In this document: in pieces, positions 12,041-17,689 of the stretch
Position numbering within the stretch: the first letter of the stretch is position 1
Layout of the letters: each line of letters starts with the position of its first letter
Assembly (NCBI RefSeq): GCF_001982635.1
Contig: NZ_MKFI01000002.1
Location: 981,313 to 1,045,312 of the forward strand
DNA length: 64,000 nt
DNA from: Bradyrhizobium mercantei
GTDB lineage: Bacteria > Pseudomonadota > Alphaproteobacteria > Rhizobiales > Xanthobacteraceae
Reading direction: 5' to 3'
Notes under the pieces: model-generated
What the model was told of the DNA's origin: nothing
Seen by the model: only the letters and a program-made list of their open reading frames with translations
Databases searched by the model: none
Position numbers and translations under genes: made by a program

Positions 12041-13600
12041 CTACGGCCGCGTCGACATGTTGCTCGGCGGCCCGACCTTGCGGATCGGCTCGGCCAGGCG
12101 CGCGAACTCGCAGAGCAGCGAGCGCGTCTTGCGCGGATCGATCACCTCCTCGACCCAGAATTTTTCGGCCGAGCGGAACGGCGAGCGCAGCTTGTTGAGG
12201 CGATCCTCGATCTCGCGCAGCTTGGCGGCGGGATCTTCGGCCGCATCGATCTCGGCGCGATAGGCCGCCTCGATGCCGCCCTCCAGCGGCAGCGAGCCCC
12301 AATAGGCCGACGGCCACGCATAGCGCATCGAGAAGCGGTTGGCCGGCTGATGCACCACGCCGGCAACGCCAAAGGCGTTGCGGATGATGATCGTGCACCA
12401 CGGCACCGTGCTCTGGTTGACCGCCGCCATCGCCCGTACGCCGTGGCGGATGGTCGCCGACTTCTCCGCCTCGAGCCCGATCATGAAGCCGGGGCAATCC
12501 ATCAGATAGACCACCGGCAGATGGAAGGTCTCGGCGAAGTCGACCCAGCGCACCACCTTCTGGCACGCATCCGCGGTCCACGAGCCGCCATAGTGGAACG
12601 GGTCGCTGGCGAGCAGCAGCACCGCCCTGCCCTCGATCCGCGCCAGTCCCGTGATGACAGGCCGGCCGAAATTGGCGGCGACCTCGAAGAACGAACCCTT
12701 GTCGACGACGGCCTCGATGATCGGCCGCATCTTGTAGACCTGCCGGCGGTTGCGCGGCACGGCCTTGAGCAGCGACTCCTCGGCGCGCTCGGGATCATCG
12801 GTGCAGGGAATGGTCGGCGGCAGATCGTAGACCGACGCTGGCAGATAGGACAGGAAGCGCCGCGCGTAGTCGAACGCCTCCTCCTCCGTCTCGACCGCCT
12901 GATCGATCGCGCCGGCGCGGGTCTGGATGTCCGCGCCGCCGAGCTCCTGCTTGGTCAGATCCTGGCCGAGGCGCTTCACCACCGGCGGGCCGGCGACGAA
13001 CATCGCCGAATTCTTGGTCATGACCGAGTAATGCGTGGCCGCCAGCCGCGCAGCACCGAGGCCTGCGACCGAGCCGAGGCCGAGGCCGACCACCGGCACC
13101 CGCGCCAGATTGGCGGTCGTGTACCAGTACCAGCGCGTGCCGCCGACGCCGCCGGGCAGATTGGCCGCGCCCCTGGTCTCGATGGTCTTCACCGAGCCGC
13201 CGCCGCCGGAGCCTTCGATCACACGCACGATCGGCAGGCGGAAATCATGCGCCATCTCCTCCGCCATCAGCGGCTTGGCGGAAATCGATGCATCCGCCGA
13301 GCCGCCGCGCACGGTGAAGTCGTCGCCGACCACGACCACGGTGCGGCCGTCGACCTTGGCGCGGCCGAACACGCAGTTCGCAGGTGTCAGATGCTTGAGT
13401 TCGTTGCTCTCGTCGTATTCGGCGATGCCGGAGATGGCGCCGACCTCGTGGAAGCTGTTCTGGTCGACGAGCTTGTCGATGCGCTCACGAACCGTGAGCC
13501 GGCCCTGGTCGCGTTGCCGCTTGACCTTGTCAACGCCTCCCATCTCCCGCGCGAATGCTTCGCGCCGGGCGAGGTCGTCGAGTTCCGGCTTCCAGTTCAT
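12041..13600 (-). CDS. Acyl-CoA carboxylase, carboxyltransferase (beta) subunit
   Basis: A 519-residue protein with both N- and C-terminal crotonase-like halves of a biotin-dependent carboxyltransferase. Diagnostic pieces are KRQRDQGRLTVRERIDKLVD, VVVVGDDFTVRGGSADAS, an oxyanion-type GLGSVAGLGAA, VYLMDCPGFMIG and AFGVAGVVHQPANRFSMRYAWPSA. It would move CO2 from carboxybiotin to an acyl-CoA. The substrate (propionyl, methylcrotonyl, geranyl or other) is not determinable. Its ribosome binding site, GGGAGTAGTGA, lies inside the upstream IclR gene, whose last 71 bases overlap. A free biotinyl carrier sits on the other side of the regulator, but no biotin carboxylase is nearby. Confidence 0.9.
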   Translation of the reverse strand: MNWKPELDDLARREAFAREMGGVDKVKRQRDQGRLTVRERIDKLVDQNSFHEVGAISGIAEYDESNELKHLTPANCVFGRAKVDGRTVVVVGDDFTVRGGSADASISAKPLMAEEMAHDFRLPIVRVIEGSGGGGSVKTIETRGAANLPGGVGGTRWYWYTTANLARVPVVGLGLGSVAGLGAARLAATHYSVMTKNSAMFVAGPPVVKRLGQDLTKQELGGADIQTRAGAIDQAVETEEEAFDYARRFLSYLPASVYDLPPTIPCTDDPERAEESLLKAVPRNRRQVYKMRPIIEAVVDKGSFFEVAANFGRPVITGLARIEGRAVLLLASDPFHYGGSWTADACQKVVRWVDFAETFHLPVVYLMDCPGFMIGLEAEKSATIRHGVRAMAAVNQSTVPWCTIIIRNAFGVAGVVHQPANRFSMRYAWPSAYWGSLPLEGGIEAAYRAEIDAAEDPAAKLREIEDRLNKLRSPFRSAEKFWVEEVIDPRKTRSLLCEFARLAEPIRKVGPPSNMSTRP

Positions 13601-14519
13601 TCACTACTCCCGTCTTGATGATTTTGTTGTTGTTATGGGTGGTCACCGGAAGCGATTTGCGTTCGATCCGATTGCTGAAGATGTCGCCGTCGGCGCCTTC
13701 GAGCAGGCTGCCGAGCGCGGCGGCGAGTTCGACCATCTGCGGCGCGACCTCGCGATGCAGCCTCGCCTCGTCATACATCGCCGAGAGCAGGCCGATCGTG
13801 GTGACCACATAGGTCTGATACTGCGGCGACCACAGCGGCACCGCGACGCCGTTGATGTGCGGGCTCCACAGGCCGCAGGCGACGACGTAGCCGTGCTCCT
13901 GCAAATGACGGCGGTTGGCCTCGATGCGCGGCGTCAGCATTTTGGCGCCTTCAGGCAACTCGCCCTCCATCTCCGCGATCAGCGCGTCGCCGATCGCAGG
14001 ATCGAGCGCGGCCGTGTAGGCGTGGCCGGCGGCGGTGGTCGCCATCGAGATGCGGCTGCCGGTCGCCTCATGCAGGCCGAGCGCGTTGGCGGCGCGGGCG
14101 AACTCCAGATAGACCAGATGAAAGCGGTCGGGGATCACGAAGCCGACGGTGCCGGGCAACTGATCGGCGACATCCTGCAAACGCAGCCGGATCAGATTGC
14201 GCAGCTGCAACCCCTTCATCATCGTGGTGCTCATCGCGACCGCGCTCGGACCGATCCGATATTTCTGGTCGCGCGGCAGATAGACGAGCTGTCCCATCCG
14301 CGTCAGCGTGTGCGTCAGCCGCGACACCGTCGAACGCGGCAGACCGCAGCGGTTCGAGATTTCGAGATTGCCGAGCCGCGCCTCGTGCCCCTCGAAGCAC
14401 CGCAACACATCGAAGGCGCGCGACACCACCTGGATGACATCGCCATCGCCTGTCTCGCTGGCGAGCATTCCCTGCCTGCTAAGCCGTTCCGAGCGCCGTC
14501 CCATTTGTTTTGGCTCCAT
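13530..14519 (-). CDS. IclR-family transcriptional regulator
   Basis: A 329-residue regulator. The N-terminal winged helix (residues about 25-90) contains LGNLEISNRCGLPRSTVSRL and a wing with YLPRDQKYRIG. The effector domain follows with GFVIPDRFHLVYLEFAR and MATTAAGHAYTAAL. The C-terminus runs about 40-50 residues past the usual IclR end, in a low-complexity basic tail (RRPRPARSIRAGDGRR) that is also the overlap with the carboxyltransferase. This suggests loss of an older stop codon. It faces the biotinyl carrier gene, and the shared intergenic region has a clear inverted repeat, so it probably controls both sides. Confidence 0.9.
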   Translation of the reverse strand: MEPKQMGRRSERLSRQGMLASETGDGDVIQVVSRAFDVLRCFEGHEARLGNLEISNRCGLPRSTVSRLTHTLTRMGQLVYLPRDQKYRIGPSAVAMSTTMMKGLQLRNLIRLRLQDVADQLPGTVGFVIPDRFHLVYLEFARAANALGLHEATGSRISMATTAAGHAYTAALDPAIGDALIAEMEGELPEGAKMLTPRIEANRRHLQEHGYVVACGLWSPHINGVAVPLWSPQYQTYVVTTIGLLSAMYDEARLHREVAPQMVELAAALGSLLEGADGDIFSNRIERKSLPVTTHNNNKIIKTGVVNELEAGTRRPRPARSIRAGDGRR

Positions 14520-14634: not shown

Positions 14635-14856
14635 ATGCCAGAGATCAAGGTTGTGACCGAAGTTGCCGGCCGCGTTTGCGCGCTTCCTGTTGAAGCCGGC
14701 AACAGCATCGGCGATGGCGACGAGATTGCGTTCGTCGAGGCGATGAAGATGGAGATACCGGTCACATCGACGACAGCAGGCAAAATCAAGTCGATTTTGG
14801 TCAAGATCGACGATGTCATCGCCGAGGGCCAGGCGATCGCGATCGTCGAGACCTGA
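14635..14856 (+). CDS. Free-standing biotinyl carrier protein (73 aa)
   Basis: A complete 73-residue biotinyl/lipoyl domain. It has the biotinylation motif EAMKMEIP with the target Lys about residue 42, and the paired hairpins KVVTEVAGRV and VTSTTAGKIK that fold around it. Start ATG 14635 follows GGAGAGTGGA. It would shuttle CO2 between a biotin carboxylase and a carboxyltransferase. The nearest partner is the carboxyltransferase beyond the divergent IclR gene. No biotin carboxylase is in the window, so that subunit must be shared from elsewhere or the carrier serves another complex. Confidence 0.9.
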   Translation: MPEIKVVTEVAGRVCALPVEAGNSIGDGDEIAFVEAMKMEIPVTSTTAGKIKSILVKIDDVIAEGQAIAIVET

Positions 14857-14948: not shown

Positions 14949-14996
14949 GTTTCGCTTTCGAAACGTTTTCGACCCAGAAGTTTCGCATAACGAAAC
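14949..14996. promoter_or_regulatory. Cluster of GTTTCG/CGAAAC inverted repeats upstream of the glutaminase
   Basis: GTTTCG (14949-14954) pairs with CGAAAC (14959-14964). GTTTTCG follows at 14965, then GTTTCG (14980-14985) pairs with CGAAAC (14991-14996). The centres of the two inverted repeats are about 31 bases apart, three helical turns. They lie 130-180 bases before the glutaminase start. This looks like a two-site operator; the cognate regulator is unknown. Confidence 0.45.
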
Positions 14997-15129
14997 AAAT
15001 ACCGAGCAACCGCTCGCTTTGTGAACATCTGTTCGAAAGCCGGCGGCTCGTCCGATGCAGCCGCCTCCCGTCTGACGTCGAGGCGCGCTCGGTTGCGCGC
15101 GCCCTGATTGCGATGCACAACAGAAGGCG

Positions 15130-16989
15130 ATGAAACAATCGCCTCCTCCCGTCACTGCCTCTACCGTCAACTGGGCCCGCTCGCAGCCGCCGCTGCTGCG
15201 GTTTCTGCACACTTGTTACGCAGACTTCCTGCCGGAGGACGCCGGTGCGGTGGCCGACTACATCCCCGAGCTCGGCAAGGCCGACCCTGCCCATTTCGGC
15301 ATCAGCCTCGCGACGCTCGACGGCCATGTCTACGAGGTCGGCGATACCCGGGTGCCCTTCACCATCCAGTCGATGTCGAAGCCGTTCGTGTTTGCCCTCG
15401 CGCTGGACACGCTGGGTGCCGAGCGGGTGGAGAGCGTGATCGGCGTCGAACCGTCCGGCGACCCCTTCAATTCGATCCGGCTCAACGCCGAGAACCACCC
15501 GTTCAATGCGATGGTCAACGCCGGCGCGATCGCCTGCTCCGGCCTGCTGCATGCCGAGAAGGGCGACGGCGCGTTCGACTATATCCGCCAGGCGCTCGGC
15601 CGCTTCGCCGGCCGCGAGCTCGACGTCGACCATGCGGTCTACACCTCCGAGAGCGCGACCGGCGACCGCAACCGGGCGATCGGCTATCTCCTGCGCACCA
15701 ACAGCGTGATCACCGAGAACGTGCCTGCGGTGCTCGACGTCTATTTCCGGCAATGCGCCATCCTGGTCACCGCGCGCGACACCGCCGTGATGGCAGCGAC
15801 GCTGGCCAACCGCGGCATCAATCCCTTGACCGGCGAGCAGGTGGTGACGCCCTATGCGATCGCGCGCACGCTGTCGGTGATGACCTCGTCGGGCATGTAC
15901 GACTACGCCGGCGAATGGATCTACCGTGTCGGCATCCCCGCCAAGAGCGGCGTCGGCGGCGGCATTCTGGCGGCGCTGCCGGCGCGGCTCGGGCTCGGCA
16001 GCTATTCGCCGAAGCTCGACAAGCACGGCAACAGCGTGCGCGGCATCAAGGTGTGCGAGACGCTGTCGGCACATTACGACCTGCACATGCTGAACCGCAG
16101 CGACGATGCCCGCCACAGCATCATCGCCGACTACAATATCGGCAAGAACCCGTCGCGGCGGGTGCGCCGGCCGCAGGAGCAGGAGATCCTGGCCAGGCAC
16201 TTCCAGGAAGTCCGCGTGATCGAACTGGTCGGCACGCTGTCGCTCTCCAATGTCGACTATGTCTCGCGCCGCCTCGCCGGCAGCCCGCGGCCGGAGTTCG
16301 TGATCTTCGACCTGCGCCGCGTCACCGCGACCACCCGCGCCGGCGCCCGGCTGGTCGCGGAAGCCTTCCAGGAACTGGCAGAACTCGGCGTCACCGTGGT
16401 CCTGTCAGGCATCAAGCGGACCTCGCGCGAATGGGACACGATCAGCGAGTGGACCAGGCGGCTCGGCAACATCAGGGATTTCTATCTGCTCGATACCGCG
16501 ATCGAATGGGCCGAGGACCAGATCGTCTACCGGTATGGCGGCTCGATCGACTTCCTCGAGACGACAGAACTTGCCGAGCAGCCGCTGCTCGCCGGACTGA
16601 ACGACTCTGAGATCGCCGACCTCGCCACGCTGTGTACGGTCAGGACGTACCAGCCGAACCAGAAGATCATCGCCGCGGGCAGCGAGGCGGCCTCGCTGTT
16701 TTTCCTGCGCAGCGGCGTGGTCCACGTCACCCTCCCCGACGGCATCCGGCTCGCGACGCTGACCGCCGGCATGGCGTTCGGCGAGATGGCGCTGCTGGAG
16801 CCGAACCGCTCGGCGGACGTGGTCGCCGACTTGTCGGCCACCGCCTACGAGGTCGCGATCAAGGACTTCGAGCGCTTCCGCGAGCAGCATCCGCGCGCCG
16901 GCGAGCGGATCATGCGCAACCTCGCACAGATCCTCGCCGAGCGGCTGATCGTGGCCAATGCGAAGGTGGACTTGCTGACGTCGGGGTAG
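15130..16989 (+). CDS. glsA: Glutaminase fused to STAS and cyclic-nucleotide-binding domains
   Basis: A 619-residue protein, about twice the length of a plain glutaminase. Residues about 20-315 are a serine-dependent glutaminase with the SxxK motif in QSMSKPF (Ser about 81, Lys about 84), plus NPFNSIRLNAENHPFNAM-type and SGVGGGILA segments, converting glutamine to glutamate and ammonia. About 355-460 is a STAS domain (VIELVGTLSLSN, FVIFDLRRVTATTRAGARL). About 480-605 is a cNMP-binding domain (GSEAASLFFLRSGVVHV, GMAFGEMALLEPNRSADVVA), where FGEMALL and the R-S pair fit the phosphate cassette. STAS and cNMP domains suggest allosteric control by partner proteins and cAMP or cGMP. It is monocistronic, with an inverted-repeat cluster upstream. 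The fusion is visible; the regulation is inferred. Confidence 0.93.
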   Translation: MKQSPPPVTASTVNWARSQPPLLRFLHTCYADFLPEDAGAVADYIPELGKADPAHFGISLATLDGHVYEVGDTRVPFTIQSMSKPFVFALALDTLGAERVESVIGVEPSGDPFNSIRLNAENHPFNAMVNAGAIACSGLLHAEKGDGAFDYIRQALGRFAGRELDVDHAVYTSESATGDRNRAIGYLLRTNSVITENVPAVLDVYFRQCAILVTARDTAVMAATLANRGINPLTGEQVVTPYAIARTLSVMTSSGMYDYAGEWIYRVGIPAKSGVGGGILAALPARLGLGSYSPKLDKHGNSVRGIKVCETLSAHYDLHMLNRSDDARHSIIADYNIGKNPSRRVRRPQEQEILARHFQEVRVIELVGTLSLSNVDYVSRRLAGSPRPEFVIFDLRRVTATTRAGARLVAEAFQELAELGVTVVLSGIKRTSREWDTISEWTRRLGNIRDFYLLDTAIEWAEDQIVYRYGGSIDFLETTELAEQPLLAGLNDSEIADLATLCTVRTYQPNQKIIAAGSEAASLFFLRSGVVHVTLPDGIRLATLTAGMAFGEMALLEPNRSADVVADLSATAYEVAIKDFERFREQHPRAGERIMRNLAQILAERLIVANAKVDLLTSG

Positions 16990-17024
16990 GTTTCTGTCAC
17001 GCTGCGCGAGGGTATGTGCAACTC

Positions 17025-17112
17025 GTCATGCCCGCGCTTGACCCGGGCATCCACGTCTTGGCGCTGACCGCGAAGAAAGACGTGGATGGCCGGGTCAAGC
17101 CCGGCCATGACG
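17025..17112. repeat. Intergenic inverted repeat (GTCATGCCCGCGCTTGACC family)
   Basis: Starts GTCATGCCCGCGCTTGACCC and ends GGGTCAAGCCCGGCCATGAC. Inner arms carry CCACGTCTT and AAGACGTGG. It lies between the convergent glutaminase and CMD-like genes and belongs to the same family as 24265. Confidence 0.8.
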
Positions 17113-17161: not shown

Positions 17162-17689
17162 TCAGCTCACCACTTCCGTCACCGGCTGCATGTCGATCTC
17201 GAACGTCTCGAGGAATTTCGACGTCATGATGTAGAAGCCGACCGAGAGCTGCAGCTCGATCAGCGCGGCCGGTGTCAACAGCGCCGCGATCGCCTTGAAG
17301 GTCGCGTCGGTCGGCTTTTTCAGCTTGACGATCTCGTCGGTGAAGGTCAGCGCCGCGCGCTGCACCTCGTTGAAGCAGGTCGCGGGCTGCCAGTTCTCGA
17401 GCGCAGCGTTCTGCTCGTCGGTGACGCCGACATTCTTGCCGATGCGCTTGTGCGCGACGATCTCGTAAGGCGCCTCGCAGAGAATGCCGGTGCGCGTGAT
17501 CGCAAGCTCGCGCACGATCGGATCGAGTTCGCCCTTGTGGCGGATCGCGCCGCCGAGCCGGCAGTACTGCTCAAAGTAGCTCGGCGAATGCGCCATCATG
17601 CGGAAGATATTGGCGTTGCGGTTCTTGTCGAGGATCTCGCGGGTGCGCGGGCTTGCCTTCGCGGGATCGGAGTAGTCGATACGGGCCAT
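17162..17689 (-). CDS. Carboxymuconolactone decarboxylase (CMD/AhpD-like) family protein
   Basis: A 175-residue all-helical protein. The CMD core is at ILCEAPYEIVAHKRIGKNVGV, with the Glu-x-x-x-x-x-His pattern of the family but only one Cys in place of the CxxC of peroxidase-active AhpD. A redox role is therefore doubtful. Proteins of this type (MARIDYSDPAKAS start) are often found in bacterial CoA-thioester degradation clusters, as here at the edge of the 18-25 kb cluster. The catalytic role is unknown. Confidence 0.8.
   Translation of the reverse strand: MARIDYSDPAKASPRTREILDKNRNANIFRMMAHSPSYFEQYCRLGGAIRHKGELDPIVRELAITRTGILCEAPYEIVAHKRIGKNVGVTDEQNAALENWQPATCFNEVQRAALTFTDEIVKLKKPTDATFKAIAALLTPAALIELQLSVGFYIMTSKFLETFEIDMQPVTEVVS

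Follow-up and report, generated by a model that had tools for sequence, protein, structure and literature searches.

The window, i.e. the whole 64,000-nucleotide stretch of Bradyrhizobium mercantei DNA that was analysed, contains on its forward strand one open frame of 619 aa in which a glutaminase domain is followed by a STAS domain and a cyclic-nucleotide-binding (CNB) domain. The gene and its parts are located as follows (positions in the window).

15130..16989, + strand: three-domain glutaminase gene (glutaminase-STAS-CNB), one open frame (Pfam and model)
15244..16089, + strand: Glutaminase domain, residues 39-320 (Pfam; active-site residues from alignment)
16189..16428, + strand: STAS domain, residues 354-433, Pfam bounds (Pfam and models)
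16642..16890, + strand: CNB domain, residues 505-587 (Pfam and fold search)
16777..16818, + strand: phosphate-binding cassette, residues 550-563, FGEMALLEPNRSAD (conservation counts)
16891..16983, + strand: C-terminal helix, residues 588-618, where the CRP-type C-helix sits (AlphaFold2 model)

All three domains scored over their Pfam cut-offs, with E-values of 1.2e-111 for Glutaminase (PF04960, 373 bits against a cut-off of 27), 1.3e-7 for STAS (31.7 bits against 22.6) and 8.7e-15 for cNMP_binding (54.9 bits against 27.5). The full-length AlphaFold2 model, computed from an alignment of 38 rows (the window protein and 37 relatives), reached a mean pLDDT of 88.8 and a pTM of 0.84, and its secondary structure fits the three domains in the same order. 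A reading of the sequence alone had named this succession of domains and had proposed a domain search with HMMs as its check; the search bore it out, the confident model agrees, and the FGEMALL motif that had been cited for the cassette is present at residues 550-556.

Domain architecture and ligand site

The glutaminase domain also passed the NCBIfam glutaminase A model TIGR03814 (329.6 bits, cut-off 255.4), and in the model it superposed on human GLS with an rmsd of 1.6 over 306 residues at 43% identity. The nine expected active-site residues were all present (Y44, S81, K84, N130, E174, N181, Y205, Y257, V275); we take their catalytic roles from human GLS, the positions being set by alignment. 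Seven of these positions were invariant across 38 three-domain proteins (38/38), and the other two were kept in 37/38. By profile and active-site residues, the window protein is thus a serine glutaminase of predicted activity. The sole deviant at the two variable positions was L146 of Chthoniobacter flavus (L146:2957-4855), in which the expected catalytic Ser is replaced by Ala and the residue corresponding to Tyr44 by His; the genome of this species encodes a second glutaminase, and L146 is possibly a catalytically dead regulator that retained the tail.

The three-domain protein was the single glutaminase found in the genome of the window, as it was in eight of nine further genomes picked from the relatives. 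Many genomes of the genus hold extra glutaminases, with up to four matches per genome at E 1e-60, so the three-domain enzyme can have others beside it. As a separate observation, two glutaminases of small-genome Alphaproteobacteria (L011, L012) carry long N- and C-terminal extensions, and their C-terminal repeats resemble, by eye, the ankyrin repeats of human KGA.

Since structure searches with the whole model were filled by matches to the glutaminase domain, the tail (residues 341-619) was folded alone, with a pLDDT of 92.7. The searches with this tail were in turn filled by CNB chains, and the STAS assignment is based on Pfam and on the alignment with the Micrococcus luteus glutaminase Mglu discussed below. 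The strand-helix order of a STAS domain was seen in the tail model, with strands and helices extending to about residue 468. The phosphorylated Ser of SpoIIAA corresponds, as we assume, to the column occupied here by Ala404, which precedes the conserved Gly405; of 118 distinct glutaminase tails, 90 have Ala in this column and 13 have Ser. An alanine at this position, with Ser in few relatives, speaks against the presence, in the window protein, of a phospho-switch such as anti-sigma antagonists have, and the sequence-only reading, which had described the STAS domain as a module of that type, did not hold in this respect.

In the CNB domain, the cassette residues Gly551-Glu552 were conserved in 118/118 distinct glutaminase tails and Arg560 in 113/118; 84 of these tails belong to the close family, so the count leans on kin, and among the 34 tails outside it Gly-Glu was kept in 34/34 and Arg in 29/34. 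The Gly529 of the beta2-beta3 loop was found in 120/120 tails, a count which takes in two duplicate sequences. As a control, 27 CNB domains of the window's genome were compared, of which 14 (the window protein included) keep Gly-Glu and Arg and 12 do not, one (L191) being aligned too short. According to the main text of PMC2246266, which prints the canonical CNB motif, the cassette Arg coordinates the cAMP phosphate and has co-evolved with the beta2-beta3 Gly. The window cassette departs from the canonical motif printed there at Met553, Asn559 and Ser561, and at two of the three the "other bacterial" consensus of the same text likewise shows Met and Ser. With G551, E552, R560 and G529 in place, the phosphate-binding cassette is intact and binding of a cyclic nucleotide is predicted. 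The cassette Arg was replaced by His, Tyr or Phe in five proteins, all of Actinomycetota (L099, L123, L128, L136, L141), and the tail can thus exist without the canonical site; these proteins form a natural test set for loss or change of ligand.

The closest solved fold for the tail was cAMP-bound GlxR (Z 19.1; rmsd 1.9 over 138 residues), followed by Clr-cAMP (Z 18.9). By sequence, the CNB domain was closest to cGMP-dependent kinases and HCN channels, for which reason cGMP remains a candidate ligand. The genome of the window gave 30 matches to class III cyclases, all over the family cut-off, and no cyclase was seen among the recurrent neighbours in clustered flanking frames of 40 loci. The Pfam search gave no match to a C-terminal DNA-binding domain, and the protein ends at residue 619, just past the helix 588-618; identity as a CRP/FNR transcription factor was ruled out on the lack of this domain.

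Flanking DNA and neighbouring genes

The surroundings of the gene comprise the following features.

13530-14519, - strand: IclR regulator gene, upstream side
14635-14856, + strand: biotin-carrier protein gene, ending 273 nt upstream, the nearest same-strand gene seen
14980..14996, no strand given: palindrome GTTTCG-N5-CGAAAC on the 5' side (repeat search)
15092..15120, + strand: 29-bp block; in relatives it coincides with the 3' end of a DctM gene (final codons and stop) and the ribosome-binding region
17024..17112, no strand given: dispersed palindromic (REP-like) element with two 36-nt arms, 3' of the gene
17162-17689, - strand: carboxymuconolactone decarboxylase-family gene, downstream side

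The gene had been described as encoded alone with its own operator-like repeats. With a gap of 273 nt to the nearest same-strand gene the first part is correct for the window, but it is not the norm of the genus: among the 66 orthologues with 70% identity or more, 47 are preceded on the same strand by a gene for a DctM-type TRAP permease, which ends ca. 9-41 nt ahead of them (the gap was taken between alignment ends and is hence approximate), and 19, the window included, do not. The upstream frame was confirmed as DctM by Pfam in both tested loci (L115 and L111), and this neighbour was seen in 0/54 relatives under 70% identity, three of which have short flanks.

The repeats exist as sequences, but their reading as operators is not supported. 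The 29-bp block was found with up to three mismatches in 58/66 orthologues with 70% identity or more, in 0/54 more distant relatives, and has one site in the genome. It was rejected as an operator because the DctM frame stops inside it in L115 and L111, and because a stop codon stands at the same position in 57 of the 63 distinct block-bearing sequences (up to five mismatches). On the best reading, the block consists of the end of the permease gene and the ribosome-binding region; where DctM is missing from this place, as in the window's genome, it may be a remnant, and it may have a regulatory role in such genomes. The 5' palindrome, allowing one mismatch, had one match in the window against 0.20 expected, and 20 of 100 shuffled sequences held one; its 15-base core was intact in just the window region and L043 among 44 distinct upstream regions (45 entries were scanned, L001 and L002 being the same place); a few close relatives, e.g. 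L042 and L046, carry imperfect copies. The 3' palindrome is a dispersed element, with 71 sites in the genome (up to two mismatches, both arms of some counted), whereas the reversed pattern had no site.

When the flanking frames of 40 loci were clustered by blastp, four clusters besides glutaminase and overlapping antisense frames occurred in three loci and 14 in two; no neighbour was common to more than three of the 40 loci once overlapping frames were set aside. Two of the three-locus clusters cross lineages, i.e. class I/II aminotransferases (L087, L099, L120) and ABC-transporter ATPases (L088, L128, L136), which is likely due to chance, since both families are very large; an aminotransferase beside a glutaminase could nevertheless be meaningful.

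Distribution and origin of the three-domain form

The three-domain form is standard in the genus and occurs only sparsely outside it; in all, it spans four phyla. Matches were obtained in 93 of 98 genomes of the genus, in 91 of them in one frame reaching from residue 14 or before to at least residue 617; two genomes had the match split over two frames (G797, G818) and five had none. The protein is accordingly not rare. Full-length proteins were found in 15/119 genomes of the family (5 of those of the same genus), 5/385 of the class (2 of the same genus) and 12/398 of the phylum (10 of the same genus), as well as in 5/194 genomes of the phylum of a Verrucomicrobium genome; the samples of genus, family, class and own phylum overlap, and in each of these only the first candidates were scored.

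When genome contigs were searched with an alignment of 14 tail sequences, the best 80 of 445 relatives included 76 with a glutaminase ahead of the tail and four with a SulP permease. The 76 glutaminase loci, counting L119, whose frame holds just the last part of the glutaminase, were distributed over Pseudomonadota (54), Verrucomicrobiota (13), Actinomycetota (7) and Planctomycetota (1), with one unassigned, and 41 of them were from Bradyrhizobium. Among plasmids, 219 records matched, none of which covered over 80% of the protein, and in viral contigs 72 stretches fit the search patterns, but kinship with the tail could be confirmed for none of them.

Twenty-five of the 98 genus genomes have, complete or almost complete, a second copy of the three-domain protein at 60-62% identity, and two more (G767 and G794) have it as fragments; genes for MFS transporters lie upstream of second copies in L081 and L109. 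In G797 (C2:1114378-1116209) the frame shifts at the junction of glutaminase and tail (query 322/321), a change which would make the two parts separate, and the paralogue of G767 breaks near the same place; the break in G797 may be a real split or a sequencing error.

The search of genomes of the same class gave one match to residues 342-611 only, which lies in a 737-aa frame encoding a SulP-type permease with STAS and CNB. The window's own genome also encodes such a protein (L167, stop-to-stop frame C45:357151-360165), in which PF00916 was found; the Pfam search gave no PF00916 match in the window protein, which is by this mark no SulP-STAS-CNB permease. The STAS domain of L167 has Ser-Ser in the phosphosite region, and its cassette retains Glu and Arg. 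The tail profile matched nearly end to end in six SulP proteins (L076, L107, L131, L140, L154 and L167), with 132-213 bits; the permease identity of the five besides L167 was assigned by similarity to L076.

One branch (support 86) divided a tree built from 55 tails into the 49 of glutaminases and the six of SulP proteins. The tree of the glutaminase domain (74 rows) required two changes of the three-domain label, and a tree in which all 49 three-domain rows were held together was not rejected (p-AU 0.557); the trees are therefore most simply explained by a single fusion, after which the three-domain form spread. The tail may have passed from permease to enzyme or the reverse. In the free tree, four tail-less single-domain relatives (L007, L008, L071, L072; 50-53% identical) branched within the three-domain group (fork support 81, surrounding fork 87). 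Loss of the tail in this clade was considered and is not established, since the joint three-domain tree has the p-AU value given above.

Control of the enzyme and comparison with known systems

The best-supported reading of these data, which we consider probably correct, though by no means securely so, is direct control of the glutaminase by a cyclic nucleotide. The protein would be a serine glutaminase with built-in allosteric control, in which a cyclic mononucleotide, most likely cAMP, binds to the CRP-like C-terminal domain via the intact cassette. Binding would shift the long C-helix, and the STAS domain, acting as a docking or transmission piece and not as a phospho-switch, would relay the change to the glutaminase core and thereby alter oligomeric state and activity. 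In PKA, HCN and CRP the ligand-free state is restrained and the ligand relieves the inhibition; by analogy, our guess is that without ligand the tail probably holds the enzyme back and that binding lifts this restraint. The occurrence of the whole tail on SulP permeases is as expected of a regulatory cassette.

The same tail could instead be a module for assembly or stability, in which STAS and C-helix hold the glutaminase in its dimer or tetramer while the CNB domain is permanently bound or empty and exerts no control within physiological times. The solved Mglu has a STAS-like second domain without any CNB, five relatives keep the tail without the cassette Arg, and relatives as close as 50-53% identity (L007, L008, L071, L072) do without the tail, all of which would suit a structural part; the cassette Glu and Arg are, however, kept in nearly all other members, which pure structure would not need, and we regard this explanation as unlikely. 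A tail that docks the enzyme to a protein or membrane transporter, so that deamidation is coupled to transport and ligand shifts location rather than catalysis, would agree with the same tail on SulP permeases, with the DctM gene just upstream in 47 of the 66 orthologues and with the MFS transporter genes upstream of two paralogues. This proposal is rather improbable, as the DctM neighbour disappears below 70% identity (0/54, three with short flanks) and no neighbour, overlapping frames set aside, recurs in more than three of 40 loci.

CNB domains with altered cassettes can take other ligands, e.g. heme in CooA, according to the main text of PMC2246266, and altered cassettes do occur in the five actinobacterial members; sensing of another small ligand or of a redox signal in place of a cyclic mononucleotide, which is known from several CNB families, would nevertheless be quite improbable here, given that Gly, Glu and Arg are kept in the window protein and in 113 of the 118 distinct tails. 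It is highly implausible that the STAS domain is an anti-sigma-antagonist-type phospho-switch which, together with a local operator, gives tight transcriptional control, as the earlier mention of operator-like repeats had implied. The Pfam match to STAS and the palindrome and other repeats near the gene invite this idea, but the phosphoserine position holds Ala404 (Ser in 13/118), the 5' palindrome is intact in the window and L043 alone of 44 regions and is matched in 20 of 100 shuffles, the genome holds 71 sites similar to the 3' element, and the conserved 5' block is, in relatives, the place where a neighbouring gene ends.

Returning to direct control by a cyclic nucleotide, a wider proposal, which we advance tentatively, is that STAS-CNB is a portable cyclic-nucleotide control cassette mounted on two unrelated machines, a permease and a glutaminase, gating nitrogen release by a second messenger and kept since one fusion across four phyla. 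Bacterial effectors of cyclic nucleotides are mostly transcription factors and channels, and the genus Bradyrhizobium is known for nitrogen-fixing symbiosis. If this enzyme of central nitrogen metabolism is directly controlled through its CNB domain, cAMP or cGMP would act on metabolism in seconds and without new transcription, in the setting of such a genus and of a genome that gave 30 matches to class III cyclases. Because the same genome bears the tail on a permease too, it would allow a clean test of STAS-CNB as a transferable module.

Fusion of CNB domains to many partners is described in PMC2246266, in the main text of which the words "glutaminase" and "STAS" are both absent. Among the titles listed by a search of open-access full-text literature, none dealt with a glutaminase-STAS-CNB protein. 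The architecture itself is, we presume, very likely already displayed in public domain databases.

A glutaminase-STAS protein without CNB is already known and solved, namely the salt-tolerant glutaminase Mglu of Micrococcus luteus (PDB 3ih8, 3agd and others). Mglu was the top structural match (model residues 19-429, Z 47.3), and its glutaminase domain is followed by a domain that aligns with the STAS domain found here. The window protein shares the Mglu-type layout, with STAS directly after the glutaminase, but scored 415.3 bits with the corresponding NCBIfam model NF002134 (429 positions), below the cut-off of 557. Mglu differs in being 456 aa long and ending after the STAS-like domain, and the placement of STAS against glutaminase in our model is unlike that of Mglu (rmsd 11.2 over 388 residues).

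The SulP-STAS-CNB permeases are homologous over almost the full extent of the STAS-linker-CNB tail, but carry it on a sulfate-permease membrane domain instead of an enzyme, and lie on the opposite side of the branch in the tail tree. The cAMP receptors CRP, GlxR and Clr are alike in CNB fold, intact cassette and long C-helix; they possess in addition a DNA-binding domain, whereas the window protein stops at the C-helix. Human GLS (KGA, GAC) has a similar catalytic domain and neither STAS nor CNB; it is regulated through oligomers or filaments and has ankyrin and helical regulatory regions, and filament entries were among the matches of the structure search. If cyclic-nucleotide control is true of the window protein, it would represent a bacterial counterpart of the allostery of human glutaminase, achieved via other modules.
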